64,000 nt of DNA from Mycolicibacterium sp. HK-90 (GTDB lineage Bacteria > Actinomycetota > Actinomycetes > Mycobacteriales > Mycobacteriaceae). Numbering within the stretch: the first letter of the stretch is position 1; every line of letters starts with the position of its first letter. The stretch spans positions 3,286,001 to 3,350,000 of the forward strand of contig NZ_CP129613.1 in the NCBI RefSeq assembly GCF_030486405.1, read 5' to 3'. The position numbers were made by a program, and so were the translations under genes. Of this stretch, positions 4,471-19,584 are shown piece by piece. Below the pieces are notes generated by a model. It saw nothing but the letters and a program-made list of their open reading frames with translations, did no database searches and was not told where the DNA came from.

Positions 4471-4949
4471 CAACTGGCGCTACGTGGGCCGGGGCACGGA
4501 CATCTATTGGGAGCGGTCGCGGCCGACTGACCGACGAGAGTACCGGCGCGCGTATCCCAGGCGCCGACGGGTCGCGACAGGATCCTTCGCGGCTAGACCG
4601 CGCCGCGACGCTTCTGCGGCTTGCGCATTGCGCAGCCGCGCCACGAGCGAGATGGATGGTGACTCGACACGGAGGCTCCTGGGAACGACTCCGCGGGAAG
4701 GCGAAGAGGTTGACTGCACTCCGCCGGACTGTGGTATCGCCGGGTCGTGTATCTACCGATAAGCTACATTATGTCAGGTTATGTGCTTCGTATTGCTTCA
4801 GATGAATCGTTGCCCGCCTTCTTCTTCTTGTCGCGGGCCACTACTCCTCCCGTCGTGTGGTTGCCGTGCAGCGCTTTCCGCTTTCCAGCCACCGTCAGCC
4901 GGCGCCCCGGGATGAACGGGCCAGCACCGTGCTGAACAAACACGACCCA
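4471..4949. other. No convincing gene
   Basis: Between the palindrome and the transposon's left target duplication I see only short overlapping frames without family signatures. On the minus strand a lysine-rich short frame (ending GGVVARDKKKKAGN) would have continued into the sequence right of the transposon before insertion, but it has no clear start. Best read as intergenic DNA. Confidence 0.5.
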
Positions 4950-4954
4950 GTCGA
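4950..4954. repeat. Target-site duplication, left copy (GTCGA)
   Basis: GTCGA directly precedes the left transposon end TGTCCG. The identical 5 bases follow the right end at 17413-17417. Five-base duplications are the hallmark of Tn7/Tn5053-type insertion. Confidence 0.9.
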
Positions 4955-4978
4955 TGTCCGTTCTCATTGAATCTGAGG
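4955..4978 (+). repeat. Left terminal inverted repeat containing 18-bp repeat L1
   Basis: Begins TGTCCG followed by TTCTCATTGAATCTGAGG (4961-4978), the reverse of the consensus CCCCAGATTCAGTGAGAA. The outer 12 bases are identical to the right end in inverted orientation. Confidence 0.9.
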
Positions 4979-5004
4979 CAAGTATTCGACCGTGACCCGA
5001 GGCA

Positions 5005-5022
5005 CCCCAGATTGAGTGAGAA
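5005..5022 (+). repeat. 18-bp end repeat L2 (CCCCAGATTGAGTGAGAA)
   Basis: Second internal copy at the left end. It is in the opposite orientation to L1 and L3, which is unusual since transposase sites at one end normally point the same way. Confidence 0.85.
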
Positions 5023-5037
5023 TTTGGTCCGCGCGTT

Positions 5038-5055
5038 TTCTCATCGAATCTGGGG
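5038..5055 (-). repeat. 18-bp end repeat L3 (TTCTCATCGAATCTGGGG)
   Basis: Third copy at the left end, same orientation as L1, ending 9 bases before the desaturase stop codon. Probable transposase (TniA/TnsB) binding site. Confidence 0.85.
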
Positions 5056-5064
5056 TAATTCGGG

Positions 5065-6156
5065 CTAGTTTTCTTTCCGCATTTTCCGCCGGTCATCTGG
5101 GAGTGCGAGCGTGAGAATGGTGCGCAGGGTGTGCCGGTACTGGCGTGTGAGCGGACCGGTTGTGTAGGGCAGGCCAAAGCGTGCGCATAGAGGTTGAACT
5201 TGCCGGGCGATCTGGGCGTAGCGGTTACTCGAAAGGTCGGGGAATAGGTGGTGCTCGATCTGGTAGCAGAGGTTTCCACTGAGGAATGCTAATACGGGTC
5301 CGGCGTGGAAGTTCGCGGTGCCCAGCATTTGTCGCAGGTACCATTCGGGTTTGGTCTCGTCCTGTAGGGCGGCGGGCGTGAATTTCTGTGTGCCGTCGGC
5401 GAAATGACCACAACAGATCACCACGTAGGCCCAGACGTTGCGCAGCAGGTTGGCGACCGCATTCGCGGTGAGGGTGCGGCGCCATCGTCGAAGACTCAGC
5501 GCGGGAAAGATCAGATAGTCCTTGCCGGCTTGGCGGGTGATCTTGCCGACCAGCGATCTGGTGAGAGCGGATTTCTCGGCGCGAGTCGCCGCGCTTCGCT
5601 GCTGGGATTCCCAGCCCTGCAGTGCGATGCCCCATTCGAACATGATGGCCAGCAGAATGTTTCGTAGGGGCTGCAGCAGATTGCTCAACCGCCACGGTTG
5701 GTCGGGGGTGACCCGCATGATGCCGTATCCGAGGTCGTCGTCCATGCCGATGACGTTGGTGAACATGTGGTGGCGGTAGTTGTGGGCGTAGCGCCATTGC
5801 GCGGAGACGCTGGCCATGTCCCATTCCCAGGTACTGGAGTGGATTTCCGGGTCGTTCATCCAGTCCCATTGACCGTGGCAGATGTTGTGGCCGAGTTCCA
5901 TGTTCTCGATGCTCTTGGCGGTGGCGAGCGCGGCGGTGCCGAGCGCGCAGCCGGTCTTGGTGCGGCTGGCGGCGATGATCAGCCGTGCGGTGACCTCCAG
6001 GCAGCGCTGAAACATGATGGCGCGCTGGATGTATGCCCTGTCTGAGGCGCCGCGCGAGTTCTCGATGTCGCGACGGATGGCTCCTAATGCGTCGCCGAGT
6101 GCCTCAAGGTCGGTCTTGCTGAGGTGGGCGTATTCGGCGACGTTGGTGATGGCCAT
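5065..6156 (-). CDS. Membrane fatty-acid desaturase (DesA3/acyl-CoA type), transposon cargo
   Basis: 363 residues from ATG 6156 (MAITNVAEYA). It carries all three histidine boxes of membrane di-iron desaturases: H90NICH94 (HxxxH), H125NYRHH130 and QIEHH at 299-303. Hydrophobic segments around residues 55-80, 160-180 and 235-250 fit an integral membrane enzyme that inserts a double bond into acyl chains, using reduced ferredoxin/NADPH partners. Mycobacterial DesA3 is longer (about 427). It is followed upstream by a TetR gene on the same strand, likely its regulator. Role inferred: membrane fluidity under cold or other stress. Confidence 0.9.
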   Translation of the reverse strand: MAITNVAEYAHLSKTDLEALGDALGAIRRDIENSRGASDRAYIQRAIMFQRCLEVTARLIIAASRTKTGCALGTAALATAKSIENMELGHNICHGQWDWMNDPEIHSSTWEWDMASVSAQWRYAHNYRHHMFTNVIGMDDDLGYGIMRVTPDQPWRLSNLLQPLRNILLAIMFEWGIALQGWESQQRSAATRAEKSALTRSLVGKITRQAGKDYLIFPALSLRRWRRTLTANAVANLLRNVWAYVVICCGHFADGTQKFTPAALQDETKPEWYLRQMLGTANFHAGPVLAFLSGNLCYQIEHHLFPDLSSNRYAQIARQVQPLCARFGLPYTTGPLTRQYRHTLRTILTLALPDDRRKMRKEN

Positions 6157-6278
6157 CGGTGTCTCACCGAGACTCAGTAGGCGCCGGCGGGGTGCCCTGG
6201 CGGCGTGCGGCTGTCGCAGCATGTGGGGTGTTTGGGCGGGTCATTGTGGTCACGTCGGTTTCAGGGTCCTGTGGGGGG

Positions 6279-7037
6279 TTATCCGGGTTCGGGTGCGCGC
6301 GTGGGCATACCACCAGGCATGTCGAGTCGGGTGGCCAGTCCGGTAAGCAGAATGTCGAGGCCGCGGTCGAGTTCGGCCAGGCCGTCGTAGGCGGCCCAGA
6401 TCGGGGCGAGGTCGCGGACGTGCGGGAATTCGCCGATCGGCAGCCGGTGCAGCCCGAGCCGCATCACGTGGTCGGTTTCCTCGGGGCGTTCGACGATCTC
6501 CTGCAATTCGGTGAGCACGTGGCCGTAGAGGAATCCGAACAATGTGCGGTATACGTGCAGTGCGTCGGGCCCGGTGAAGCCGCATCGGGTCAGCAGGGCG
6601 AGGATCTGTTCGAGGTGGCGCAGGATGCCCGGTGGCCGCATGCCGAGCGGTGTCGCCAGGGGGCGGGTGACCAGCAAGGGCACCACGTTGGGGTGGGCGC
6701 GTGCCAGGTTTCGGAAGTCGTGGCCCAGGCGGCGCAAGGCGGCGATCCAGTCCGGTGTTGTGGTGTCCAGGGAGAGTTGTTCGAAGATCATCTCGACCAC
6801 CCCGTCGAGCACGGCCGCCTTGTTCGGCACGTGCCGGTAGAGCGCCATCGGATCACGGCCGAGCGCTTCGCCGAGGCGTCGCATCGACAGCGCGTCGACG
6901 CCGTCGCGGTCGATGATGTCCAAGGCACCGGCCAGGACCGCTTCGCGGGTGATCGGCCGGTTCTGGCCGTTCTCGGTGGCGTCGGCGCTCGGGGCGCTAT
7001 CTCCCGGACCTGATGGACCCGCTGGTGGTTGGGTCAT
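6279..7037 (-). CDS. TetR-family regulator (TetR_C type), transposon cargo
   Basis: 252 residues from ATG 7037. A disordered start (MTQPPAGPSGPGDSAPSADA) precedes the HTH: ITREAVLAGALDIIDRDGVDALSMRRLGEALGRDPMALYRHVPNKAAVLDGVVEMIF. The C-terminal half matches the TetR tetracycline-repressor-like ligand domain (LDTTTPDWIAALRRLGHDFRNLARAHPN). It lies directly upstream of the desaturase on the same strand, a common regulator-desaturase arrangement. An inverted repeat at 7188-7210 in the gap to the divergent membrane gene is the likely operator. Confidence 0.9.
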   Translation of the reverse strand: MTQPPAGPSGPGDSAPSADATENGQNRPITREAVLAGALDIIDRDGVDALSMRRLGEALGRDPMALYRHVPNKAAVLDGVVEMIFEQLSLDTTTPDWIAALRRLGHDFRNLARAHPNVVPLLVTRPLATPLGMRPPGILRHLEQILALLTRCGFTGPDALHVYRTLFGFLYGHVLTELQEIVERPEETDHVMRLGLHRLPIGEFPHVRDLAPIWAAYDGLAELDRGLDILLTGLATRLDMPGGMPTRAPEPG

Positions 7038-7187
7038 GGACGAAGCACCACCTTCCGGTTGCGGCTGCGCTGATGTCTGCTCCGGGGAACCCCGCATGGC
7101 TGACATGTCGATCGCGGGCCAGCCGATACGGACGCGTGCGCTCGGTGCGCTCGGTGCACACGCATTTCTGCGTTCGACATCCACATC

Positions 7188-7210
7188 GTAGACCTATTCT
7201 GTATGTCTAC
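7188..7210. promoter_or_regulatory. Inverted repeat GTAGAC-N11-GTCTAC, probable TetR operator
   Basis: Half-sites GTAGACCTA and TATGTCTAC (8 of 9 positions symmetric) lie between the TetR gene and the divergent gene at 7270. Position and size fit TetR autoregulation and control of the cargo genes to the right. Confidence 0.6.
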
Positions 7211-7269
7211 AACGTTGACATTGGGGTGAATGCGGCGTGTACTGGACTTCTACAGATTGAAGTGTCGCC

Positions 7270-7767
7270 ATGCTCGTCATTGTTGGATTGGTTGTTCTGC
7301 TCGTCGCGGTGATCGTGGGATTCACCGGGGTGCTTTTCAATGCGGGGCCCGCGCACCCATTGACGGAGAACTTCGATGTCTTCGGCTATCACGTCACCGG
7401 GTCGACGGGCACGCTGTTCCTGTTCGGGATCGTCATCGGCGCGGTCGCGATGCTGGGATTGAGTGTGCTGCTGGCCGGCGCGCAGCGCAGCGCGGGACGC
7501 GGGCGAGCCGCCCGCCGTGAACTCGACAGGTCACGACGTGAGACCGCGTTTCTGAATCAGGAGCGCGATCGGCGGCTCGAACACGACCAGGACCACGCCG
7601 TCGCAGCCTCGGCGGTGCCCCCGCAGCGCGCCGTCCCCAGCCGCAGCAGAGATGCTCGGTTCGGCCGGTGGTGGCACGGTGGACAACCGGTGCGCGCCGC
7701 CGGAGTCGACACCGCCGGTAGGCCAACCCCGGCCGATACCTCCAGCCCGCGCTCGCGGGGGCGGTGA
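7270..7767 (+). CDS. Small membrane protein, two TM helices and basic tail
   Basis: 165 residues. TM1 is at the very start (LVIVGLVVLLVAVIVGFTGVLF) and TM2 at about residues 50-72 (LFLFGIVIGAVAMLGLSVLLAG), followed by a charged helix (RRELDRSRRETAFLNQERDRRLE) and a low-complexity basic tail. The layout resembles LapA-like membrane proteins found next to CsbD genes in mycobacteria. It heads a plus-strand row of small stress-type genes; function unknown. Confidence 0.75.
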   Translation: MLVIVGLVVLLVAVIVGFTGVLFNAGPAHPLTENFDVFGYHVTGSTGTLFLFGIVIGAVAMLGLSVLLAGAQRSAGRGRAARRELDRSRRETAFLNQERDRRLEHDQDHAVAASAVPPQRAVPSRSRDARFGRWWHGGQPVRAAGVDTAGRPTPADTSSPRSRGR

Positions 7768-7792
7768 ACACCGAAAACCAAGGAGCACGTAA

Positions 7793-7966
7793 ATGAGCGT
7801 CGGTAAGAAGATCGCCCACAAGGCCGAATCCGCCAAGGGCACGGTGAAAAAGCTCTTCGGTCGCGCCATCGGCAACACCCGCCTGCGTACTGAAGGACGC
7901 GCCGATCAGTTCAAGGGCAACACCAAACAGGCCGGCGCCAAGGTCAAAGACGCCTTCAAACACTGA
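7793..7966 (+). CDS. CsbD-family general stress protein
   Basis: 57 residues starting MSVGKKIAHKAESAKG and containing the CsbD pattern GRAIGNTRLRTEGRADQFKGNTKQAGAKVKDAFKH. CsbD proteins are small, hydrophilic helical proteins induced in general stress responses; the molecular role is not known. AAGGAG lies just upstream of the ATG. It lies 26 bases after the membrane-protein gene, probably in one operon. It is too short for ordinary ORF cut-offs, but the family match is clear. Confidence 0.9.
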   Translation: MSVGKKIAHKAESAKGTVKKLFGRAIGNTRLRTEGRADQFKGNTKQAGAKVKDAFKH

Positions 7967-8017
7967 TCTGAGCAACACCGTGCCCGGACACACCTACCCA
8001 GAAACTAGGCAACCGCC

Positions 8018-8197
8018 ATGATCGTCCTCGGAATCATCCTCATCGTTCTGGGGCTCCTGCTTCCCAGCCTCGTCCCCACGTTCGCGTTCGCCCACATAGT
8101 TTTGGTCGTCGGAGTCATCCTGCTGGTCGTCGGCCTGCTCATGATGCTCATGGGACGGATGGGTCACGCTGTCGGCGGCCGCCGCCACTACTACTGA
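8018..8197 (+). CDS. DUF6131-type two-helix membrane peptide
   Basis: 59 residues: two hydrophobic helices (MIVLGIILIVLGLLLP, then IVLVVGVILLVVGLLMMLMG) joined by a short FAFAH loop, ending in a conserved GGRRHYY tail. Small proteins of this form occur widely in mycobacteria; function unknown. A decayed second copy lacking the start is present at 9016-9173. Confidence 0.85.
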   Translation: MIVLGIILIVLGLLLPSLVPTFAFAHIVLVVGVILLVVGLLMMLMGRMGHAVGGRRHYY

Positions 8198-8343
8198 GCG
8201 ACCACCGTCAACGGCGGACGGCACAATCCCTGGCGGCCCCGCGGACTCCACCGCGCCGGCCACCCAGTACCTCACGCCGCCGAGAGCATTCCTTAGCCTC
8301 CGGCCACCAAAGTTTCACGCTCAACGAACCCCAAGGAGCCGAC

Positions 8344-8745
8344 ATGCCCACCAGCAGTATCGTTTTGATCGTCGTCATCGTCATCGCGGCCATCTTGCTT
8401 ATCGCCGCAATCGTGTGGGTGGCGCGTAACAAACGCAACGAACATCGTCACGTAGCAGCCGAAGAGATTCGCGAGGCCGCCAGGGACGAGACGCCGCAGG
8501 TTCGGCAGCGCGAGGCACGCGCCGACGAGACCGCCGCCCGGGCCCGCGCCGCTCAGGCTGAATCCGACGTCAAGGCAGCCCAAGCGTCCGGTCTGCAACA
8601 GCAGGCCGTCGCCTACCGCAGCGAGGCAGAGACCTCCCGCCACCAGCTCGACGAGCAGTGGGACCGCGCGGACACGATGGATCCGACCTCGCAAACACCC
8701 GAAACGCCCAGAACTGCCGACCGCAATGAACACCAAGCCCACTGA
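8344..8745 (+). CDS. Small single-pass membrane protein with coiled-coil tail
   Basis: 133 residues: one N-terminal TM helix (SSIVLIVVIVIAAILLIAAIVWVA), then an Ala/Glu/Arg-rich helix (EEIREAARDETPQVRQREARADETAARARAAQAESDV) and a polar tail containing HQLDEQWDRADTMDP. AAGGAG lies well placed before ATG. The cytoplasmic helix looks like a coiled coil. A paralogue with compensating frameshifts follows at 9331-9702. Confidence 0.8.
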   Translation: MPTSSIVLIVVIVIAAILLIAAIVWVARNKRNEHRHVAAEEIREAARDETPQVRQREARADETAARARAAQAESDVKAAQASGLQQQAVAYRSEAETSRHQLDEQWDRADTMDPTSQTPETPRTADRNEHQAH

Positions 8746-8922
8746 CCGTCGCCAGCTCAAACCTCGCACCCCGCCTGAAATCGCCACTCGCGCAACAACT
8801 TAACATCGCTGGACCGCAAAATTCACAGCCATCGGCGGTAGCTTGCGTACCCGCAACCCATCTGCGTGTCATCGCTGATCGCAGGATTAGGACCGGTTCA
8901 CGACCAAGACAGGAGCGTCGCC

Positions 8923-9173
8923 ATGACGCCACAACCGAGACGAAAAAACGATCAGAACTCGACCGTACCCGCGCGCACGCCGCGGCTTAGGCTGAAACCT
9001 AAGGCGCCGCACACCGGATCGTTCTGGGGCTCCTCCTTCCCAGCCTTGCCACCACATTCGCGTTCGCCCATATTGTCTTGGTCGTCGGCGTCATCCTGCT
9101 GGTCGTTGGCCTGCTCATGATGCTGATGGGGCGGACGGGTCACGCCATCGGCGGCCGGCGTCACTACTACTGA
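8923..9173 (+). pseudogene. Chimeric pseudogene: DUF5994 start fused to DUF6131 end
   Basis: The leader and first about 31 codons (MTPQPRRKNDQNSTVPARTP, then RLRLKPKAPHTG) copy the beginning of the DUF5994 gene at 11058. At about 9016-9021 the sequence switches to the coding sequence of the DUF6131 peptide (copy of 8041-8197), whose frame continues intact to TGA 9171-9173 (ending GGRRHYY), but that frame has a stop upstream and no start codon. The fused DUF5994 frame reads nonsense after the junction. Clear product of illegitimate recombination within the cargo. Confidence 0.8.
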
Positions 9174-9330
9174 CCGGTCCGCAACGCTGACCGGGTCGAT
9201 GCGGGTCGTGGCCGACTGACCCCGGACGCGCAACGACATACCCACTTCGACACTGGTCAGCGATGCAATGCCCTCAGCCATACCCCCTCACGCCAACAAA
9301 TTCATGTTTCAACAATCACAAGGAGCCGAT

Positions 9331-9702
9331 ATGGCTACCAGCAGTATCGTTTTCGTCGCCCTCGTCGTGTTCGCGACGACCATACCTATCGCTGCCTTCG
9401 CGTGGGTGGCGGGCAATAAACGCCAGAAAGATCCCTCTGCCACGCCCGACAACATCCAGCAATCCGTCAAAGCGGACCCACCGCAATTTCGGCGGCGCGA
9501 GGCGTGGGCTGACGAGGCCGCCGCCCGCAGCACTCCGCATGGCCAGAAGCCGACATCTGGGCGACCGCAGTATGGGGCCTGTGTCAACGGGACGGCGTCC
9601 GCCACAACGCGTCGCCGGATCCCGTTGAACAGCTCGACGACCCAGTGGGACCGAGCGGACACGAGGGATACCGTCCCACAGGCGCCCCATGAGCATGCGT
9701 GA
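9331..9702 (+). CDS. Degenerate paralogue of the small membrane protein at 8344
   Basis: 123 residues starting MATSSIVFVALVVFATTIPIAAFAWVAGNK, the same start and TM helix as the 8344 gene, and ending near TQWDRADTRDT. Between about residues 67 and 102 the frame is shifted: the +frame there reads ADIWATAVWGLCQRDGV...VEQLDD, matching the paralogue. So two compensating indels left the C-terminal helix scrambled. It is still open and may be expressed, but probably decaying. Its last codons overlap the start of the ligase gene. Confidence 0.6.
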   Translation: MATSSIVFVALVVFATTIPIAAFAWVAGNKRQKDPSATPDNIQQSVKADPPQFRRREAWADEAAARSTPHGQKPTSGRPQYGACVNGTASATTRRRIPLNSSTTQWDRADTRDTVPQAPHEHA

Positions 9703-10885
9703 ATGCCGATCACAAGAAGCGTCAGGACAATTGACATTCGCCAAGACGCCACGGACGGTCGGCATAGAGGAAGAGTTCCACCTTGTCGACCTCACAACCA
9801 GGCGGCTGGCAACGCGGGCACCAGAGCTGCTACCGCTGCTGCCTGACGGTTATGTGGCCGAATTGCAGAGCTGCGTGGTCGAGACCAACGGCAGTGTGGT
9901 CAGCACGCTTCCGGAATTGCGGGCTGATCTGACAGCGCGGCGTCGAGTCCTCGTCGATACCGCCGCCACACTCGGGTTGGGCGTGGTTGCCGCAGGCGCG
10001 GTTCCGCTGTCGGTGCCCAGCGAGATGCGAGTGACCCAGACTTCCCGTTATCAGCAGATGCTTGCCGACTATCAGCTGTTGGCGCGCGAACAACTGATCT
10101 GTGGAACCCAGATCCACGTTGGAATCGACGATCCTGATGAGTCTGTCCTAGTGGCCGGTCGGGTAGCCGCCTATGTTCCCACTTTGCTTGCGTTGAGCGC
10201 GAGTTCGCCGTTCTGGTCCGACGGATCTGACACCGGCTACAGCAGTGTCCGCACATTGGTTTGGCAGCGATGGCCGACCACTGGATTGGCGCCTCCGGCC
10301 ACGTCAGCCGCCGAGTACGACGCGTTGATCTCCGATCTGATTGCAACCGGGGTGATCACCGATGCGGGGATGTCGTATTTTGACGTCCGCCCCGCCTTGC
10401 GCACTCCCACCTTGGAGCTACGCGTGTGTGATAGCTGTCCACGCGCCGACACCATCGTGCTCATCACGGCGCTATTCCGCGCGCTCGTCGAACGCGAAAT
10501 CGAGGGACTACGTGCCGGGGTGCCTGCCGCCATAGTGGTCCCCCCGCTCGGCCGTGCCGCGCTGTGGCGAGCCGCCCGTTCAGGCCTGGAAGGCGACCTG
10601 GTGGACTTGATACATCCGGCGAGTCGCCCCGCGGGCGATGTGGTTACTGATTTGGTCCAGATGCTCCGTCCGCAGCTGGAGGCATCCCGAGATTGGCAGA
10701 CGGTCGAGGAGTTGGCACGCAGGGCACTGGCAGAGGGCAGCTCGGCGGCTCGGCAACGTCGCGCCATGCGCATGCGCAACAGCCTTCTCGACGTCGTAGA
10801 TCACCTCATCGCCGAGACCGCCGCCGTCGCGCCCGGCCCCCACGGTACGTTGGCAACCCGTCGTAATGGATCTGACGGGGGCTGA
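9689..10885 (+). CDS. GCS2-type carboxylate-amine ligase (YbdK family), transposon cargo
   Basis: 398 residues. Family signatures: GIEEEFHLVD (residues 25-34, the metal/ATP-binding EEEF region), ELQSCVVETNGSV, GTQIHVGID (HxH-like substrate region) and SYFDVRPALRTPTLELRVCDSCP. YbdK-type enzymes ligate glutamate to an amine or cysteine in ATP-dependent fashion, weakly acting as glutamate-cysteine ligase; mycobacteria use mycothiol rather than glutathione, so the true substrate is unknown. ATG 9689 overlaps the previous gene by 14 bases, implying coupled translation. Likely stress-linked, by context. Confidence 0.88.
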   Translation: MSMRECRSQEASGQLTFAKTPRTVGIEEEFHLVDLTTRRLATRAPELLPLLPDGYVAELQSCVVETNGSVVSTLPELRADLTARRRVLVDTAATLGLGVVAAGAVPLSVPSEMRVTQTSRYQQMLADYQLLAREQLICGTQIHVGIDDPDESVLVAGRVAAYVPTLLALSASSPFWSDGSDTGYSSVRTLVWQRWPTTGLAPPATSAAEYDALISDLIATGVITDAGMSYFDVRPALRTPTLELRVCDSCPRADTIVLITALFRALVEREIEGLRAGVPAAIVVPPLGRAALWRAARSGLEGDLVDLIHPASRPAGDVVTDLVQMLRPQLEASRDWQTVEELARRALAEGSSAARQRRAMRMRNSLLDVVDHLIAETAAVAPGPHGTLATRRNGSDGG

Positions 10886-11057
10886 GAGCCACCGTCGGCA
10901 CGGCGCAAACAAAGCGCTTGACCGCGGCCTCCATTCGGAGCTGGACCGGCGTAGGATCAACACCATCGGTGGCATTTGTACACACAGCCAGTTCGACTGT
11001 GGCATCGCTGATTCGAAGGATATGGCCGCATCACGCGGTCCAGATGGGAGCGTCGCC

Positions 11058-11603
11058 ATGACGCCACAGCAGACACGCAGAAACGATCAGAACACCATCG
11101 TGCCGGCGCGCACGCCGCGCCTACGGTTAAAACCCAAAGCACCCCAAAGCGGCTATGTCGATGGCGCCTGGTGGCCCCACAGCGATGACCTCAGCGCAGA
11201 GCTGCCAGACCTGTTGGCAGTGCTCTCGGTGCGCCTGGGCCGCATCGACCGAGTGCTATACCACCTGAACGCCTGGGCGGACGCGCCACGAAAGCTCGCC
11301 ACCGGAGGACGGGCGGTACGCCTAGACGGCTACCGGCTTCAGCCGATCAACACCATCGAAGTTCTCGGGCTCGACGGTGACCGACTCACGCTCCTGGTGA
11401 TTCCGCCCCACACCAATGCCAACGACGCCCACCGCACCATGATGACCGCGGCACAACCTCACAACGCCGCGACCGTCGACGGATTGCTCACGATCAGCCA
11501 GCGAGACCGGGACACACGCAACCAGGCCTCCACTGCTCAAGAACGCTGGGAATCAGAAGGCGGAACTACGGCTTCCCTACGGCTAGCGCAGCTCCCCGGC
11601 TGA
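11058..11603 (+). CDS. DUF5994 family protein, copy 1
   Basis: 181 residues: basic start (MTPQQTRRNDQN), conserved TPRLRLKPKAPQSGYVDGAWWPHSDDLSAELPDLLAVLS core, then repeated beta-strand pattern with RVLYHLNAW and LLVIPPHTNANDAHRTMM. Function unknown; the family is actinobacterial and in mycobacteria is often linked with CsbD-like genes. ATG 11058 follows GGGAGCGTCGCC, a leader shared with the other two DUF5994 starts in this element. Ends at a strong hairpin (11608-11637). Confidence 0.88.
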   Translation: MTPQQTRRNDQNTIVPARTPRLRLKPKAPQSGYVDGAWWPHSDDLSAELPDLLAVLSVRLGRIDRVLYHLNAWADAPRKLATGGRAVRLDGYRLQPINTIEVLGLDGDRLTLLVIPPHTNANDAHRTMMTAAQPHNAATVDGLLTISQRDRDTRNQASTAQERWESEGGTTASLRLAQLPG

Positions 11604-11607
11604 CGAA

Positions 11608-11637
11608 CTTTCCCGCGGCCCGGCACCCGCGGGAAAG
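11608..11637. terminator. Hairpin terminator after DUF5994 copy 1
   Basis: CTTTCCCGCGG and CCGCGGGAAAG form a perfect 11-bp stem with an 8-base loop directly after the stop codon, between convergent genes. No long T-tract, as is common in mycobacteria. Confidence 0.75.
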
Positions 11638-11661
11638 CGCGCTGGCACTATGTTCGTGCCA

Positions 11662-11865
11662 CTATGAGCGGTGACGAAATAGCCCGTGCGGCTTCCGCTT
11701 CTCATCGCCGGCCACCTCGGTCCAGCCCCCTGCAGGATAGGCCACAGGTTGCATTGTTCCGGCACGGACAACCTCCAACGACCCGTCGGCGTGCTTGATG
11801 TAGCGGTCACCGAAGCGCGCAAACTCATCAGTGAGGCCGTCGTTGCGGGTTACTTGTACAGTCAT
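11662..11865 (-). CDS. Small hypothetical protein
   Basis: 67 residues: MTVQVTRNDGLTDEFARFGDRYIKHADGSLEVVRAGTMQPVAYPAGGWTEVAGDEKRKPHGLF. Single beta-rich domain with a KHADGSLEVVR hairpin; no family recognised. It follows the second DUF5994 gene on the same strand at 60 bases distance, so probably co-transcribed. Confidence 0.6.
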   Translation of the reverse strand: MTVQVTRNDGLTDEFARFGDRYIKHADGSLEVVRAGTMQPVAYPAGGWTEVAGDEKRKPHGLFRHRS

Positions 11866-11925
11866 GGTTCAAATCCGATCCCTGACGCCATCGTCAGCGT
11901 GTTGTTCTTCACAAGCCGTCACCGG

Positions 11926-12459
11926 TTAGGTATTCGGTTGTGCACTGCGTGATTTCGGTATCTCAGATTCCCAGCGCTGCTGGGCAATGCTGGCTCGGTC
12001 CAAGGTGATTCGAACGCGCGGCTCGATGCCGAGAAGCTGGTCCACACTGGTCTCGTCGCTGGGATGTGCGGCCCGCATCATCGTCGCGTGCGCGTCGGAG
12101 GCGTCCGTGTGCACAGCCACGACCAGCAGATCGAGTCGACGGAATCCCGGTCCTAGCAGGCTGACGGTTGAGATCGGTTGGCGCTCATCTCCATCCAACC
12201 TGACCGGACCGCCACCAGCGTCGAGTTTTCGCGGCGCTGACTGCCAGTCAGACAATCGGTACAGTACCCGTTCGACATGCCCCAACCTGACGGACAACAC
12301 CGCTAGAAGGTCAGGAAGTTCAGCACTTAGGTCGTTACCGCGAGGCCACCACGCCCCATCGACAAAGCCGATACGTGGCGCCTTCGGTTTCAACCGCAAT
12401 CTCGGAGTACGGGACGGAATTTGCATCCGTTGCGAATTCTCGGCCGCTTGTAGCGTCAT
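11926..12459 (-). CDS. DUF5994 family protein, copy 2
   Basis: 177 residues from ATG 12459. Same core as copy 1 (PRLRLKPKAPRIGFVDGAWW, then DLSAELPDLLAVLSVRLGHVERVLYRLSDW) and similar C-terminal half (LLVVAVHTDASDAHATMM). Start chosen because the leader GGGAGCGTC next to ATGAC matches the other copies. It is on the opposite strand to copy 1, just left of the transposition genes. Function unknown. Confidence 0.87.
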   Translation of the reverse strand: MTLQAAENSQRMQIPSRTPRLRLKPKAPRIGFVDGAWWPRGNDLSAELPDLLAVLSVRLGHVERVLYRLSDWQSAPRKLDAGGGPVRLDGDERQPISTVSLLGPGFRRLDLLVVAVHTDASDAHATMMRAAHPSDETSVDQLLGIEPRVRITLDRASIAQQRWESEIPKSRSAQPNT

Positions 12460-12619
12460 GTGGACGCTCCCATCTGTGGTCGAGCCAATCGACCTATTGA
12501 TCGATGCTCCAAACCCGAATGGGCAAGCTGCATGACCGAACACCGACATGTTTAACGCTACTCGCAGTCACACAAATTTGCGACAGACGAGGCCGGCGTC
12601 TGTCAAGTAGCTGTTGGCG

Positions 12620-13465
12620 TCAGGAGCCGCGGTGTGGTCCGAGCAATCTGGTGATCGGCCCGGCGGGTCGGTGCATTGCCAGGCGTTGGTCGCATATCCA
12701 TTGGTCGAGGGCGCCGGTGCTCCCGCAGCGATCGGGGAAATCGGTCTCGATCCGTCGGTGAAGCGCGTCAAGGAGTTGGCCGCTGTGAGGATGGGTCGTG
12801 GCAATGTGGGGCCGATAGTCGGCAAGGATGACCGCCAAGGCGACGTGATCGCTGTAGGCGTCGAGGTATTCCTCCACCGTGATTTCTCGAAGCGACAGCA
12901 CGGGTGTGACGGTGCAGCCTTCACGCCACCAGCAATTCAGGATTCGGCGCGCATCACGCATAGCGAACGGAGCGAAATCCTTGTGCTGGTAGGCCATTCG
13001 CGCATGCCTGCGTGCTGCTGTGAGCACTGCCGGACGATGTTCGAGCGGTCGTTGATCGCCCCACCGGTGTGCTGGTGCGCCGATCCATCGGCGATGACGG
13101 AAACACACCGTGCGGTGTTCGGGCAGCCAGCAGTAGACCGGTTCATAGATTCCGCGGCGCGCCATACACAGTCGGCACCCGGGTCGTGACCTGCGCAGTT
13201 GTTCGGCGAAACCATGGCCTCGGGTGAGGCCTTTGAGCCGAATTTCCAGCAGATCAAGAGGGTAACCGCTGGCAGCTGCGAGCCATTCGGGCCGCGGCTG
13301 GTTGCTGACCGCTGTGCCCGACAGATAGGTGTGCAGCACCTTCAGGGGCAGGTGGTTGGCGTGGGCCAGTCGCATCGTGTAGGAATGCACCGTTTCGGTC
13401 TGCACCGGCCACACCCTGCGCGGCAACGCGTGTTGTGGTCCTTGCGGCCATGGTCTGGGATTCAA
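12620..13465 (-). CDS. tniQ: TniQ-type target-selection protein
   Basis: 281 residues. N-terminal TniQ pattern (RRVWPVQTETVHSYTMRLAHANHLPLKVLH) is followed by a zinc-ribbon arrangement (CRLCMARRG ... CWLPEHRTVCFRHRRWIG), as in TniQ/TnsD proteins that help choose the target. It is short compared with TnsD, closer to Tn5053 TniQ. Last gene of the operon, 6 bases after tniB. In related elements TniQ recruits the AAA+ ATPase to specific DNA; which site it recognises here is unknown. Confidence 0.9.
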   Translation of the reverse strand: MNPRPWPQGPQHALPRRVWPVQTETVHSYTMRLAHANHLPLKVLHTYLSGTAVSNQPRPEWLAAASGYPLDLLEIRLKGLTRGHGFAEQLRRSRPGCRLCMARRGIYEPVYCWLPEHRTVCFRHRRWIGAPAHRWGDQRPLEHRPAVLTAARRHARMAYQHKDFAPFAMRDARRILNCWWREGCTVTPVLSLREITVEEYLDAYSDHVALAVILADYRPHIATTHPHSGQLLDALHRRIETDFPDRCGSTGALDQWICDQRLAMHRPAGPITRLLGPHRGS

Positions 13466-13471
13466 GCCGGT

Positions 13472-14506
13472 TCAGCTGGCGGTGCGGGCGGCTGCGGTGT
13501 GAGCGGCATAGTCGATCAGCACGGTGTCCATCAGCGCTCGCGAGACCTGTTCGGTGCCATCCAGCATGGCCTGGATAGCTGCGGCGCGGATCAGATGGGC
13601 AAGGCTGCCGATCATGCCGCCGGTGCGGCGGTGCAGGTATCGCGCCTCGGCAACAAGGGATCCCGGTGGGTGGGAGTGCAGCCGCAAGGTGCCCTCCATC
13701 GCTGCCACGAGCTGACGCCATTCTTTAGCATCCGGGAACGCACTGGTGTGGATAACACCACAGCGCCCGGCAAGCTGGCGTCCGCGGGTGCCGGTGAACA
13801 GCCCGGAACGCTCCACGTCGATCCCGGCATACACAAACGTCGCAGGCAGGTGTTCGGTGAAGTATTTGAGGTGATCAGACAGTTCTTCCCCGGCGCGGGT
13901 ATCCAGGTTGAGGTTGTGGATCTCGTCGACCACCACGATGTCGGTCCTGGCGTCGATGAGCACTTGGCACACCGCGTCGGAGATATCGGTGACGTTCATC
14001 CGCGGGTTTAGCATGGGTAAGCCCAGAAACCGGGCGAATTCCATCGCGAGCTTGCGTGGTGAACCTTTCGGCGGTGCGGTCACATACACCACCGGTATGC
14101 GGTTGTCGTCGCCGGGGAACCGTGCCCTGGTACGCAGTTCGTGAAATCTGCCCAGTTGTTTGATCGCGGTGGTCTTGCCGGTCGCAGCGGCGCCGGAGAT
14201 GATCAGGCCACGTCGCGCGCCAATCTCGCGCTGATTGAGCAGGGTCAGCAGTCGGCCTTGGTTGGTGATCGATTCGATCGCCGATGTCGTGACCACCACC
14301 AACTCCGAGTGATGCGCTACGCGGGCCTCGTTGTAACGGGTCCGAGCATCGTCGTCTAACTGCGACCACGTCAGATCGTCGAGCAGTTCGAACTCGGGTG
14401 CATCGGCCTCAATGAAACGCCGCCAGCCCTCCAACGTGGTGGTGGGCTGGCGGCGATCCTCCAACTGGTTCACGGCCACTGTTTGCGGCTCGGTCACAGT
14501 CGCCAC
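13472..14506 (-). CDS. tniB: TniB/TnsC-type AAA+ transposition regulator
   Basis: 344 residues. Walker A GAAATGKT (105-112), Walker B VVVDEIHNL (191-199) and following sensor region (FVYAGIDVERSGLF) place it in the TniB/TnsC AAA+ family. Such ATPases form filaments on target DNA and activate the transposase, linking TniQ to TniA. Start overlaps the end of tniA by 13 bases, so translation is coupled. Confidence 0.92.
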   Translation of the reverse strand: MATVTEPQTVAVNQLEDRRQPTTTLEGWRRFIEADAPEFELLDDLTWSQLDDDARTRYNEARVAHHSELVVVTTSAIESITNQGRLLTLLNQREIGARRGLIISGAAATGKTTAIKQLGRFHELRTRARFPGDDNRIPVVYVTAPPKGSPRKLAMEFARFLGLPMLNPRMNVTDISDAVCQVLIDARTDIVVVDEIHNLNLDTRAGEELSDHLKYFTEHLPATFVYAGIDVERSGLFTGTRGRQLAGRCGVIHTSAFPDAKEWRQLVAAMEGTLRLHSHPPGSLVAEARYLHRRTGGMIGSLAHLIRAAAIQAMLDGTEQVSRALMDTVLIDYAAHTAAARTAS

Positions 14507-16569
14507 GATTGGGCCTCCTTGCGTGCATCGAACACCGGCAGAGGAATCACCTCGGCCACAACGTCTTCACCGTTTGCGTCGTCGGCTGTTTGATCGCTCG
14601 GCGACGCACCGTGCTCGGCCGGCGGCCCCGGCACGCCGGGCCAGCCGCGACCGGCGCTAGCAGCACTTGTCCGCCCAGTCACCCGTCGCTCCGCTTTCGT
14701 TCGGCCCTGGGGGCCCGCGGCGGCTCGGTCCATCAGATCCTCGGCAACGGCTGCAATCTCGGCTTCCTGCGCCTTCTGGATGCCTGTGCGGTTAGCCACC
14801 GTGCGCGCGTGACGCCACAGCATCTCGCCGAACGGCACCGGGGCGCTGCGCAGGTGCGTCCACGTCGCGCCCAGCCAGCCATCGTCGTGGTGATTGCGTA
14901 TCCAGATTCTCGACACGTCATAGGGGTCGTAATGGACCTCCCACTGTCCGTTGTGGGCATCGACCCCGGAATGCTGGCGGCGGTAAGGGTTGAGCGCCTT
15001 GGCGTCATAAGTACGATGATTGATCCGGATCCCGTAACTGTTGATGGTCCGCCACGCCACCGGCAGTAGCTCAACGTAATCGTCGGCGCCCAGCGGGACC
15101 GGCACATAGCCGGCGACTTCGACCAGCGCAGCGTATTTCTCGTTGGGGGTCAACGCTTTCCCTGGAGTCACCGGATCCCGCAGACCGTCGTGAGGCCGGT
15201 TCTGCCACACCGCGATGATCCACTCGTCCAACAGCGCCTGAAGTTCGATCATCGACCACACCGCATCGTCCTCGGCGTTCTTCCCGCGCCGTTCCACCGA
15301 CGACCCCACATACCCGGCAACATACTGCGCGAACAGGGTGCTCACAGACTGCAGCGTCCGTTCTACCTTCGGTTTGTCGGTCGGGCAGTCAGGATGAGCC
15401 GGTTGCAGATTGATCCCGAGAGTGCAGCACGCCTGCCGAAACGTTTGTGACAGATACGCTTTTCCGTGGTCACACACGACCGTCTCCGGAGCGATTACCG
15501 GCCGCGCCGCGGCATCGGCCAGGCGCTGATCAACACTGGTCAAACTGCGGTGCGGCAACACCGACCGCGACATCCGCAGCGCATCCGCCCATCCCGGACG
15601 CATTGGCTCCGGCGTCAACGCCCGCGCTAGCAACAACGACGCATCCACCGCCTTGGTCGTCGGCCGCAACACCGCCGCCGGAATCGAACGCGTCGCGTTG
15701 TCGACCATCCCGGTCAACTCGACCCGGTCCACCAGACCATCATCCAGAACCACCAGCACATCCAACGGCGTCGAATCGATCTCCACCATCTCCCCGGGCC
15801 GCACCACGGTGACCGACCCGAACGGGCCATCCGGCTGCTTGGACAACGACCGCCGCGTACGCGCCGACCCGAACGTATGCCGGCCCTCGGCGAGCCTCTT
15901 CACCAGCCGGTAGAACGTCGGCTGAGACGGCATCGCCGGTGCATCCTCGGGTCCATACGCCGCCGCCAACGACTTGGCAACTTGCCGCTGCAAGCGCTGC
16001 ACTGTCCCCGTCGACAGGTTGGTCTCGCCCTCGATTGCGTCACGCACCGCGGCGACCACACGCTCGTCCACCCGGCCGAACACGTGCCGGCGACGATTGT
16101 GTCGCCCATCCACGACGCCCAACAGCCCATCCCGCTCATAGGCGTAACGACGACGCTGCAATGCATTCCGGCTCACCTCATGGCCAGCAGCACGCAACTC
16201 GTCCAGCTTGGCCAACTCCCGTTGGCGCAGAGATCGTCTCGCCGTGTCATATTCCTGGCGGGGTCGAGAACCCGGAGCGGCCCCGGGCGGCCGGCCGGTC
16301 AGGATCTCGACGATATGTCGCTCCCACCAGCGCGCCAGCTCAACCGCTGCTTCCGGAATTCCCGCCAACATCTCCTCAGAACACAACGGTGGCCGCGACC
16401 CTGACACCAACTCCAACGCAGGGTCAACCAACAACTGCGACACCGGCACCACGATGTGCTCACCGACAGCGTCGACCAACCGGACCGACCCACCCGACAA
16501 GGCCACAACGGTGAAAACACCTGATGACAAACGGATCTCGTCTCCCGCGCGGACCACACCCGTTCGCAC
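14494..16569 (-). CDS. tniA: TniA/TnsB DDE transposase (Mu-type integrase)
   Basis: 691 residues. N-terminal winged-helix/helix-turn-helix DNA-binding part (about 1-240, with REGs such as LDELRAAGHEVSRNALQRRRYAYERDGLLGVVD), then a retroviral-integrase core with the catalytic triad D265 (VEIDSTPLD), D367 (VVCDHGKAYLS) and E403 (KPKVERTLQS); the D-E spacing of 35 is canonical. A Mu-transposase C-terminal domain follows, and a Pro/Gly-rich tail that would contact TniB. It performs 3'-end cleavage and strand transfer and should bind the 18-bp end repeats. Confidence 0.93.
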   Translation of the reverse strand: MRTGVVRAGDEIRLSSGVFTVVALSGGSVRLVDAVGEHIVVPVSQLLVDPALELVSGSRPPLCSEEMLAGIPEAAVELARWWERHIVEILTGRPPGAAPGSRPRQEYDTARRSLRQRELAKLDELRAAGHEVSRNALQRRRYAYERDGLLGVVDGRHNRRRHVFGRVDERVVAAVRDAIEGETNLSTGTVQRLQRQVAKSLAAAYGPEDAPAMPSQPTFYRLVKRLAEGRHTFGSARTRRSLSKQPDGPFGSVTVVRPGEMVEIDSTPLDVLVVLDDGLVDRVELTGMVDNATRSIPAAVLRPTTKAVDASLLLARALTPEPMRPGWADALRMSRSVLPHRSLTSVDQRLADAAARPVIAPETVVCDHGKAYLSQTFRQACCTLGINLQPAHPDCPTDKPKVERTLQSVSTLFAQYVAGYVGSSVERRGKNAEDDAVWSMIELQALLDEWIIAVWQNRPHDGLRDPVTPGKALTPNEKYAALVEVAGYVPVPLGADDYVELLPVAWRTINSYGIRINHRTYDAKALNPYRRQHSGVDAHNGQWEVHYDPYDVSRIWIRNHHDDGWLGATWTHLRSAPVPFGEMLWRHARTVANRTGIQKAQEAEIAAVAEDLMDRAAAGPQGRTKAERRVTGRTSAASAGRGWPGVPGPPAEHGASPSDQTADDANGEDVVAEVIPLPVFDARKEAQSWRL

Positions 16570-16575
16570 GCCAGC

Positions 16576-17316
16576 TCACCACCCAGCCCCGAGCCCGATC
16601 AGCGTGTCATCGCCAAGCGGCGCATCACGCAAATCGGCTGCCAGGCACCCTTGCCAAAGGAGATGAAACAGCACCGGCAGCACCACCAGGGGAGTGCCGA
16701 CGGCCCGTACTCCAGCCATCAAGGGACGGGCTCGGGTGAACACCTCAGTGAGCTGTTCAGCCAGGCCCACCCGCAGGACTCGTGGGTGTCGATAACCCGA
16801 CAACCACCGCAGGTTGGCCCGCAGCACCGGATTGAGTGCGCCGACCCGGCGATAATCCCAGCCCACCATCGCGCAGGCCGCCGCAGACCGATCGAACACC
16901 TTCTGATCGCCCACCGAGATTCGCTCGTCCTCACGAACATCAACCACCACGGCAGAGCCATCTCGATGACGCACGAAGTAATCCGGCGCGTGTCGAGATC
17001 CGTCGGGCCAGTGGAACCAAAACGGTTGCGACAGCACGCCAACCACATCTGGATCGGCATCCAGCGCCATCAGCTGATCACGTTCCACCCACGACTCGTG
17101 ACCGACGTGCGTACCCGTGGTGGCAAACCACCACAGACCAGGAAAGTTCCGTTGACCGCGAAAAGACGGGAAATTGCGCACCGGTGCGCAGTCCAGTTCA
17201 AACCGGACAGCAGCGCATCGCTCAAGTGAACGGCGCAAACGTCCCTCGCGTGTGTCGAACTCCAAGTCCACAACACCCGCTACAACCGGCCCTGCCGACA
17301 ACGCCGATGTCAGCAC
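16576..17316 (-). CDS. tnsA: TnsA-like transposase endonuclease subunit
   Basis: 246 residues from GTG 17316. The central part has a PD-(D/E)xK layout: E in HESWVERDQL (74/79), D112 in HAPDYF, and D126-V-R128 in VVVDVRED, where TnsA has QxK; so the usual Lys is Arg here. Flanking strands (FWFHWPDGSRHAPDYF) match TnsA-like heteromeric endonuclease subunits of actinobacteria. It would cut the 5' strands at the transposon ends, giving cut-and-paste movement. First gene of the operon; its promoter must overlap the right-end repeats, so transposase binding may autoregulate (inference). Confidence 0.85.
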   Translation of the reverse strand: MLTSALSAGPVVAGVVDLEFDTREGRLRRSLERCAAVRFELDCAPVRNFPSFRGQRNFPGLWWFATTGTHVGHESWVERDQLMALDADPDVVGVLSQPFWFHWPDGSRHAPDYFVRHRDGSAVVVDVREDERISVGDQKVFDRSAAACAMVGWDYRRVGALNPVLRANLRWLSGYRHPRVLRVGLAEQLTEVFTRARPLMAGVRAVGTPLVVLPVLFHLLWQGCLAADLRDAPLGDDTLIGLGAGW

Positions 17317-17337
17317 AAATAAACGTTAAGCCCGATG

Positions 17338-17355
17338 CCCCAGATGCAGTGAGAA
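17338..17355 (+). repeat. 18-bp end repeat R3 (CCCCAGATGCAGTGAGAA)
   Basis: Innermost copy at the right end, 21 bases before the tnsA start codon, 31 bases start-to-start from the next copy. Confidence 0.85.
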
Positions 17356-17368
17356 AGACACGCGGATA

Positions 17369-17386
17369 CCTCAGATTCAATGAGAA
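17369..17386 (+). repeat. 18-bp end repeat R2 (CCTCAGATTCAATGAGAA)
   Basis: Middle copy at the right end, an exact inverse match of L1 (4961-4978). Confidence 0.88.
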
Positions 17387-17388
17387 TG

Positions 17389-17412
17389 CCCCAAAATCCG
17401 TGAGAACGGACA
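17389..17412 (-). repeat. Right terminal inverted repeat containing 18-bp repeat R1
   Basis: CCCCAAAATCCGTGAGAA (17389-17406) followed by CGGACA, the exact inverse of the left tip TGTCCG. Outer 12 bases match the left end perfectly. Confidence 0.9.
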
Positions 17413-17417
17413 GTCGA
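17413..17417. repeat. Target-site duplication, right copy (GTCGA)
   Basis: Identical to 4950-4954. Removing the element and one copy restores CCCAGTCGATCTGG, which is a short dyad (CCAG-N5-CTGG) centred on the duplicated bases. Confidence 0.9.
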
Positions 17418-17486
17418 TCTGGAGGTAGCACGTGACAGTAACGAGGATGTTTGCGGTCGCAGTCAGTCGTTGGCGATAATGCGGCT

Positions 17487-17945
17487 GTGCTCCGTCGTGC
17501 GCCGTTTCCGCTCCTAGCGCAAGTGCCTGCGGTATTGCAGGACGTGATTCTGGACTTCCGCTGGGATATCGAGCGACTGCACACACTGGACCTACCCACG
17601 TGCACGGTCGCGGGCAGCGATCTGGCTTGGCATCTGGACCTGCCGTTCTGGTCGGCTCGCGGAGTTCCGTTCCAGATCTCTCCGAACGAGGTAGCAGCCA
17701 ACCCAGCTGCCCACCAAAAGCATTGGCAGCGGACGCTTGCCGCCGAACTGCGCTATCCTCTGGACGCCTATCTGCGCTGGGATGGTCAGATCGTTGTTCT
17801 GGATGGAATCCACCGACTCCTGAAAGCCTCACTCACGGACCGAACTGACATCCCAGTGCGCGTACTAACGCCGCATCGGTTCGACGCTATCGCCGTGCCC
17901 GCAGCAGCGCCGGTGACGGTCCAGTCGCGGGCGATCCCCAACTGA
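17487..17945 (+). CDS. ParB-like nuclease-fold hypothetical protein
   Basis: 152 residues from GTG 17487. It contains DAYLRWDGQIVVLDGIHRLLKASLTD, resembling the DGxHRxxA element of ParB/sulfiredoxin-fold N-terminal domains, preceded by PFQISPNEVAANPAAHQKHWQRTLAAEL. No ParB HTH follows, so it is not a full partition protein. It is the first chromosomal gene right of the transposon, which inserted about 70 bases before its start and may have separated it from its promoter. Confidence 0.65.
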   Translation: MLRRAPFPLLAQVPAVLQDVILDFRWDIERLHTLDLPTCTVAGSDLAWHLDLPFWSARGVPFQISPNEVAANPAAHQKHWQRTLAAELRYPLDAYLRWDGQIVVLDGIHRLLKASLTDRTDIPVRVLTPHRFDAIAVPAAAPVTVQSRAIPN

Positions 17946-18323
17946 GCCTGGTGACGTTGGTCCCCTCTTTCACCTCCTTGAGCTACCGGCGACCATGATC
18001 AAGCGCAGCTCTCTCTCCGGAGATCGGAGCGCTTCGCATTAGACCTGGCGGGCTGCGGTGTTTCTGCGGCTTCTCGATTCAGCAGCGCGAACGGTGGCCG
18101 ACGACACGGCTACCCCGCCGGCACTGAGGAGGGCGGAATGAGCGTCCGCCTGATGTCCCGGAATGTATGGTCCGTTTCGGACCAGATCATCCGAAACGGA
18201 CTGATAATTCTGCGCCGAGGAACGCCGCCGCCTGGTCACTACACATCACCGTGTAGATCGGCAGACCAGGATCAACGCAGCCAAACAGCCGCCAACGCCC
18301 CGGCGCGGCTGTAAGGTACCGCG
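17946..18323. promoter_or_regulatory. Non-coding gap with nested inverted repeats at 18169-18201
   Basis: No gene seen. GTCCGTTTCGG (18170-18180) and CCGAAACGGAC (18191-18201) are perfect 11-bp inverted repeats with a 10-base spacer. The left arm is itself inside a second palindrome, GGTCCG-TTT-CGGACC (18169-18183). Looks like a regulatory operator or attenuator; its regulator is not identified. Confidence 0.5.
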
Positions 18324-18650: not shown

Positions 18651-18940
18651 TCGACGCGTCGCGATTGCCATCGCGATGTCGGCTCTCACCGCCTCTCCCC
18701 TGCCACACCTTCCGGATACGCAGCAGCGCCAGCCGGTTGTGTCATCCCCGGCCTACGTTGAATCACCGAAACGTCCGAGTGACCTCACCCGTCACGCTGG
18801 GTCATTTTGGCCACGGCTCCTCGACGCCAACGGCTACCGCAAGCTGCCCAAGCTCGTGGGCCCGTCCACGATTAGGGCGTGTCTGGCCCCTCGAAACGGC
18901 CCGACTGCCCGGGGGACACCACCAGGGTGGACACTATGGC

Positions 18941-19492: not shown

Positions 19493-19584
19493 ACGCCTGA
19501 GCCCGAGGTCCTAGTCCTGCCGGGCGGCACACATGCCTCGCGGCCCGCACGTCCGAGCGAAAGCCGTTGGCCCGGGGAACAATC

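Follow-up and report, generated by a model that had tools for sequence, protein, structure and literature searches.

Target choice is a central question for Tn7-like transposons. In the chemistry described for these elements, TnsB cuts the 3' strands, TnsA cuts the 5' strands, and TnsC provides the link to a target selector (PMC8649781; papers are cited by PMC number and, unless the main text is named, for the sections available to us). According to those sections of Benler 2021, no element of the actinobacteria-rich clade has been experimentally characterised. Members of this actinobacterial group and Tn7706 of Rhodococcus erythropolis NI86/21 (PMC12915292) carry tnsA, tnsB, tniB, and tniQ, inverted ends, and repeat arrays, with copies on both plasmids and chromosomes. 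All of these features are shared by the transposon described here, which occupies positions 4955–17412 of a 64,000-bp stretch of DNA (hereafter the window) from Mycolicibacterium sp. HK-90, namely positions 3,286,001–3,350,000 of a host genome that consists of one contig of 6,488,666 bp. The gene set is not unusual, being that of the known actinobacterial Tn7-like group, and by host and genes, rather than by placement in the published tree, the element would fall into clade 2 of Benler 2021 (PMC8649781). We consider it highly probable that it is an actinobacterial TnsA–TnsB(TniA)–TnsC(TniB)–TniQ transposon that inserts beside dif and beside the dif-like Xer sites of some plasmids.

Bacteria separate joined chromosomes at dif. 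If dif is indeed the landing site, the gathering of such elements around it in mycobacteria would be accounted for, and transposition would be tied to the resolution of chromosome dimers. A single selector would then open both chromosome and plasmids to the element, and actinobacteria would have a natural, single-copy, non-coding position into which large inserts could be placed.

Boundaries, genes and mobility

The transposon measures 12,458 bp and is bounded by 12-bp exact inverted ends (TGTCCGTTCTCA from 4955, its inverse up to 17412), with the target-site duplication GTCGA, a verified pair, directly outside both of them (4950–4954 and 17413–17417). A preliminary description of this DNA had placed the ends and their flanks at these positions, correctly to the base. 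Each end also carries three 18-bp repeats that appear to be transposase sites, with scores of 25–32 against 14.1 for the next best match in the window; the matrix was derived from these same six repeats, and only the gap to the next match and the recurrence in relatives are meaningful. In the left, cargo-side end (4955–5055, plus strand), the TGTCCG tip is followed by repeats at 4961–4978 (+), 5005–5022 (−), and 5038–5055 (+), an order of forward, reverse, forward at 7, 51, and 84 from the tip (7F/51R/84F). In the right, tns-side end (17338–17412, minus strand), the matrix places the repeats at 17389–17406, 17369–17386, and 17338–17355, all in one direction, at 7, 27, and 58 from the tip. The left layout recurs in 20 of 21 verified elements (the third site sits at 85 in three and at 94 in one; L019 has the first site only), and the right layout is complete in 14 of the 21, with two of the three sites in four elements and one of the three in three. 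Transposase-site arrays at both ends, TGT/ACA tips, and a 5-bp duplication are all those of a Tn7-like element. A fixed sequence at the insertion point was considered and rejected: the 21 verified sites have no consensus except a weak G at duplication positions 1 and 4.

As the preliminary description stated, the element encloses tnsA, tniA, tniB, and tniQ, which form one minus-strand run; together with the ends and duplications, these genes bear out its assignment to an intact Tn7-group transposon (TnsABC plus TniQ). The tnsA gene (16576–17316, −) encodes a TnsA-like endonuclease of an actinobacterial subfamily (NF033179, 293.6 bits against a cut-off of 110), with a PD-(D/E)xK-type motif that ends in arginine (D126-x-R128); its matches to solved structures were at chance level only. 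TniA (14494–16569, −), the TnsB equivalent, is a DDE transposase with a Mu-transpos_C match and TnsB as its best solved chains, and its catalytic residues D265, D367, and E403 are kept in 56/57, 55/57, and 57/57 aligned rows. TniB (13472–14506, −), the TnsC equivalent, matches PF05621 and is a TnsC/TniB AAA+ ATPase. TniQ (12620–13465, −; 281 residues), the proposed target selector, has a TniQ domain (C97/C100/C121/H124) and a helical C-terminal part, and was identified by profile and fold: alone, it matches PF06527 at E 0.0033, under the curated cut-off, 15 of 19 homologs match, and its profile matches ShTniQ at E 0.02. An AlphaFold model built from 16 rows (mean predicted local distance difference test score 88.8) finds ShCAST TniQ as its best fold match (probability 0.97, E 0.08).

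TniA is present in a single copy in the host genome. The preliminary description had proposed looking for an empty site and for copies in other flanks, and both exist. M. porcinum (L015) carries the whole element, 98.65% identical over 12,464 columns, with identical boundaries, different flanks, and a different duplication (AGTGA/TCACT); M. agri (L014) has the same left end in different flanks, the match stopping at 17,236, 76 bp short of the contig end. The empty site lies in a related genome, G231, which reads CCCAGCCGATCTGG against a predicted CCCAGTCGATCTGG, a single difference that falls within the duplication. At the junction, G231 runs to ACACGACCCAGCCGATCTGGAGGTAGCAC, and the window runs to ACACGACCCAGTCGA, then the element, then GTCGATCTGGAGGTAGCAC. 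The right flank of G231 aligns at 92% over 231 bp, which is good support for an empty site; on the left, close alignment is confined to some 20 junction bases and the dif motif, and is poor between the two.

More distant relatives have moved as well. On two M. chimaera plasmids, a relative is present as identical 11,965-bp copies, their duplications being GAAGT and GCCGG; a 17,017-bp version on an M. avium plasmid has GTGAC; and a 10.3-kb relative in L024 is 99.8–99.99% identical to copies in five other genomes (in L019 over the aligned 10,264 bp). The M. chimaera copies (L012, L008) match the M. avium metal-gene element (L009) minus an internal stretch of ~5 kb, a difference that is probably a deletion. 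Altogether, 24 verified insertions have 24 different 5-bp duplications and are therefore separate insertions. The first listing held 22 duplication pairs, of which L025 (2468 bp) was dropped as a chance pair inside another element; L034, L035, and G087 were added on the strength of family-like tips, from lists that also contained chance pairs. The sequence thereby shows the mobility of the element as well as its ends, its duplications, the empty site, and the position at dif.

Insertions beside dif

The stretch of left flank that is kept between the window and G231 is TACCGATAAGCTACATTATGTCAGG, which we take to be dif because of its arm layout, its occurrence once in nearly every genome, and its position on the chromosome. 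It has two 11-bp arms and a 6-bp centre, and arms around a centre are the dif layout given in PMC12907356. The motif (at most one mismatch) is found in 237 of 248 genus genomes, nearly always once, against none for a reversed-pattern control, and lies at 50.7% of the host chromosome, whose origin was not mapped. Its core, CCGATAAGCTACATTATGTCA (4756–4776, +), has no second match in the host genome when one mismatch is allowed; this XerCD site, the proposed target, lies outside the transposon and is also present at the G231 empty site. The core is 178 bp from the left end, a proximity that the preliminary description had overlooked, and we propose a dif-targeted group whose members lie no more than 2 kb from dif or from a dif-like site, as the window element does.

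Insertions of the same clade cluster at this site. Fifteen of the 24 verified insertions lie 178–1890 bp from dif (median 342), for which random spread gives P ~5e-41 (at least 15 of the 24 no farther than 2 kb from a single site in 5 Mb). Three more adjoin a dif-like core in which two of the 18 fixed bases differ: M. vulneris L023 at 613 bp, with its exact dif on another contig, L009 at 664 bp, and G157 at 274 bp. Two of these three are on plasmids, pP4-4a (112,641 bp) and pJCM15296 (266,447 bp). Either plasmid has a single dif-like site when up to two mismatches are allowed, and its distance to the element is 664 bp in the former and 274 bp in the latter. Seventeen of 18 insertions of the clade are on the CCGATAA side of dif (binomial p 1.4e-4). 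Gaps for L034, L035, G087, and G102, like the distances outside the genus, were computed by hand from coordinates. In G102 (C1:2311000–2503100), which stands outside the 24, ~181 kb separates two copies in direct orientation whose duplications are exchanged, CTATC/CTATC outside and TCTCG/TCTCG inside, as expected of a circle with a copy that recombined with a copy on the chromosome. The outer site, which is chromosomal, lies 212 bp from dif; a dif-like site with two mismatches is found ~172 bp from the inner one.

Proximity to dif extends to relatives. TniA relatives were found in 77 of the 248 genus genomes, and distances were counted for places that share a contig with dif. Those within 10 kb of dif number 14/19 at 69% identity or more, 11/13 at 42–53%, and 7/14 at 33–38%; for relatives of at least 42%, the tally is 25/32. 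Four broken-copy pieces (two in G087, one each in G153 and G018) were left out of this tally, and two other broken copies were kept and counted as misses. It has to be asked whether the neighbourhood of dif merely tolerates or collects foreign DNA, with no targeting involved. Different Tn7-like elements do surround one dif in G156, G002, and G037, and yaeQ, beside dif, is itself patchy (84 of 248 genomes). However, TniA relatives below 33% identity are within 10 kb in 0/7 cases, and IS256 in the same 77 genomes is within 10 kb at 1/80 places among the matches listed and on the dif contig, that one beside an element in G196 (Fisher p 1.3e-17 for 25/32 against this 1/80 among the matches listed). 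With the ~50-bp spacing in relatives (see below), these controls make an absence of targeting extremely improbable.

A homolog of yaeQ (18883–19502), single copy in the host genome, lies close to dif and near several other insertions. As a target, it was rejected: it is ~1.5 kb away here, the distance varies, and 164 of the 248 genus genomes have no match at E 1e-30. The clustering of insertions is better explained by dif than by yaeQ.

In other relatives, the spacing is tighter. In the 42–45% TniA group, three elements with paired duplications leave gaps of 51, 51, and 50 bp between their tns end and the dif core (G088, G060, G114; the tips of the G088 pair match at 8/12 only), and in three genomes of two other genera, also with paired duplications, the gap is 52, 53, and 79 bp (G283, G376, G386). 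Six loci with one-ended gaps, which have no verified duplication, give 48 (G002), 42 (G156), 54 (Kribbella), 41 (G172), 48 (G204), and 51 bp (G083). The pair finder also yields chance pairs at 8–9 of 12 matching bases, 106–1935 bp from dif; the pairs of L141 (8/12) and L161 (9/12) were accepted on their 51- and 52-bp positions and family-like tips, L162 gave no convincing duplication pair, and a possible pair 49 bp from dif in L159 (G124) belongs to no TniA match and was not counted. Random points in six of these loci fell 40–80 bp from a pair in 82 of 12,000 trials. The other genera come from a separate search, made after the idea had formed, which returned 13 non-genus genomes with a match at E 1e-100 and allowed up to two dif mismatches; in five of them, TniA is within 5 kb of dif (~0.95–1.04 kb in G322, G283, G376, and G386; 5.0 kb in G361). 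In a 41-row TniA tree, drawn with a midpoint root for display only, the near-50-bp rows fall into three parts with unclassified rows between them, and the looser clade of the window forms one supported group (100/100). Kribbella sits near that clade with weak support (87/83 and 91/85), and L161, L010, and L061 carry a long-branch warning. Proximity to dif may be old and the looser spacing derived.

Could dif simply mark the terminus, the element responding, like TnsE of Tn7, to fork structure or to the end of replication? A dif at 50.7% of the host chromosome (origin not mapped) would suit such an explanation. Against it, the peak lies within 2 kb of dif, is one-sided in the window's clade, and narrows to ~50 bp in relatives; two plasmids show it again at dif-like sites; and no TnsE family was seen among the open reading frames (ORFs) of the window that were scanned. 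We therefore regard terminus sensing as very unlikely.

Several observations weigh against insertion beside dif. Six of the 24 verified insertions are not close to any dif-like site: two are on the M. chimaera plasmids, which contain none, G153 is 148 kb from dif, L028 has its dif on a different contig, L037 belongs to a genome whose dif sits on the contig of another element (L055), and the contig of L027 ends 98 bp past the tns end. Seven of the 32 TniA relatives of at least 42% identity that share the dif contig are more than 10 kb away, and 13 of 45 places of such relatives either do not share a contig with dif or belong to a genome that lacks the motif. Outside the genus, 3/13 genomes have the two far apart on the same contig (G473, 24 kb, on a plasmid; G511, 56 kb; G460, megabases), and 5/13 have them on different contigs. 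The spacing is not fixed in the window's own clade (178–1890 bp), the window copy itself is on the opposite side of dif from the other 17, and pRhX5, the Rhodococcus plasmid of Tn7706, is without a dif-like site.

Target selection and transposition chemistry

TniQ, the only protein of its kind seen in the element, is the probable selector, and it most likely steers the transposase to dif, bare or recombinase-bound, much as res-site hunters are steered to resolvase sites. In the scheme we propose, TniA would bind the repeat arrays of the two ends (F-R-F and F-F-F) and carry out the joining to the target, with cuts staggered by 5 bp, and release of the 5' strands would fall to TnsA. TniB would connect the transposase to TniQ; by recognising dif, either as DNA or with recombinases bound, TniQ would place the element beside dif and leave dif whole. 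The role of TniQ, the participation of Xer, and cut-and-paste chemistry are inferred. Rfam and tRNA scans of the window gave no match, and a guide RNA or tRNA target was rejected. No Cas family was found among the window ORFs scanned and no Rfam match in the window; no dedicated search for a CRISPR array was made.

TniQ appears as an exchanged module: relatives with 88% TniA share TnsA, TniA, and TniB at 83–88%, whereas TniQ is shared at 42%, and DNA similarity to them stops at 13,435, about the start of tniQ. That the selector is only 42% identical between two copy sets, both with dif insertions, counts against the scheme; dif reading would need to have survived this divergence or to be achieved via a common partner such as the Xer complex. 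It is possible, if somewhat less likely than not, that what the selector recognises is the XerC/XerD(-FtsK) complex on dif and not the dif DNA itself, as Tn5053-type hunters use the resolvase of the target res, in which case any plasmid Xer site in use would do. Loose spacing, such as the 178–1890 bp of the window's clade, would follow from a flexible contact; the plasmid dif-like sites differ from dif in sequence, yet adjoin the element; and the res-site hunters are mechanistic kin, with TniA, TniB, TniQ, and 5-bp duplications (PMC7765201). The 41–54-bp spacing in several lineages, however, is explained just as well if TniQ reads the DNA directly. TniQ length was considered as a correlate of spacing and rejected, since the lengths overlap. 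A broader proposal is about as likely as not: dif and plasmid Xer sites may serve a broad actinobacterial Tn7-like clade as its general attachment site, with one TniQ that would read the XerCD–dif complex as both a chromosomal safe harbour and a plasmid door, in place of the separate TnsD and TnsE pathways of Tn7.

The usual catalytic lysine is missing from TnsA, which counts against the cut-and-paste part of the scheme. The motif residue is arginine (R128) in 36/36 distinct proteins of the actinobacterial subfamily, as would suit replicative transposition with an inactive TnsA. Yet the tnsA gene is kept, many other residues are invariant among the 36, no resolvase or recombinase family was found among the window ORFs scanned, and the element is single copy in the host genome; replication in place of cut-and-paste is, on balance, unlikely.

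Cargo and relation to known systems

The cargo amounts to about 7.5 kb, close to the ~7.4 kb of the preliminary description, which had also called it adaptive; that term is an inference from gene families only. From the left end, it comprises a fatty-acid desaturase (PF00487; 5065–6222, −; 82% to an M. branderi plasmid protein), a TetR-family regulator (6279–7184, −; family scan), and a CsbD-family small protein (7799–7966, +; family assignment). A duplicated block follows (8042–9705, +), whose parts, 8042–8682 and 9018–9669, are ~70% identical on sequence comparison and hold DUF6131-like and small membrane ORFs. Family scans also identified a GCS2/YbdK glutamate-cysteine ligase family gene (9689–10885, +) and two DUF5994 proteins (11058–11603, +, with a possible ORF start at 10866; and 11926–12549, −). 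The cargo was rejected as part of the machinery: the block also occurs on an M. branderi plasmid, where the annotation of the fetched 30-kb stretch lists no tns genes. On that plasmid, pJCM12687 (L006), the block lies at 12001–18274, and a lone TGTCTGTTCTCATCGAATCTGGGG end at 25573. Between 10455 and 11455, the window copy has more than 110 differences from the M. porcinum and M. agri copies, with few elsewhere, and is 94% identical to the M. branderi block, against 86% in adjacent sequence; on the basis of this local divergence and likeness, the patch was probably swapped by recombination. At the left edge of the window (28–477) is an ORF with a Type VI/phage baseplate OB domain.

No report of dif as a Tn7-like target was found in the literature searched, which covered neither supplements nor most subscription papers. 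The whole word dif is absent from the main text of PMC8649781 and PMC10293859, it is not mentioned in the available sections of PMC12915292, and in papers that join Tn7 or Tn7-like elements with dif, the passages available concern other matters. Among the described actinobacterial elements, Tn7706 has a different cargo and lies on a plasmid without a dif-like site, and the TniA at its place on pRhX5 is 52.8% identical to that of the window.

Tn7 and the TnsD/TniQ elements that use att sites (glmS, comM, yhiN, parE; PMC10201428) share the TnsABC core with the window element and, in its fixed-spacing relatives, a near-constant distance to the target. Unlike Tn7, the window element has one short TniQ and no TnsE family among the ORFs scanned, and its target is a non-coding recombination site; with its insertion beside dif instead of at the glmS attTn7, it is not Tn7 proper. 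Neither is it a CRISPR-associated transposon as far as the scanned ORFs, which hold no Cas effector family, can tell, a scan that included no dedicated search for an array. Tn6022-like elements with TnsF (PMC10293859) share a modular target selector and a link to tyrosine recombinases; TnsF, however, is an inactivated tyrosine-recombinase protein aimed at comM, and no such family was found among the window ORFs scanned.

A likeness in targeting links the element to a group that is not known to carry TnsA, Tn5053/Tn402. These res-site hunters share TniA, TniB, TniQ, 5-bp duplications, and insertion at a site-specific recombination site, and they are replicative and carry their own res–TniR (PMC7765201), whereas the window element has TnsA, has no recombinase family among the ORFs scanned, and takes as its target the tyrosine-recombinase site dif rather than res. 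In target choice, by analogy, the element would work like the Tn5053 res-site hunters without being one of them.

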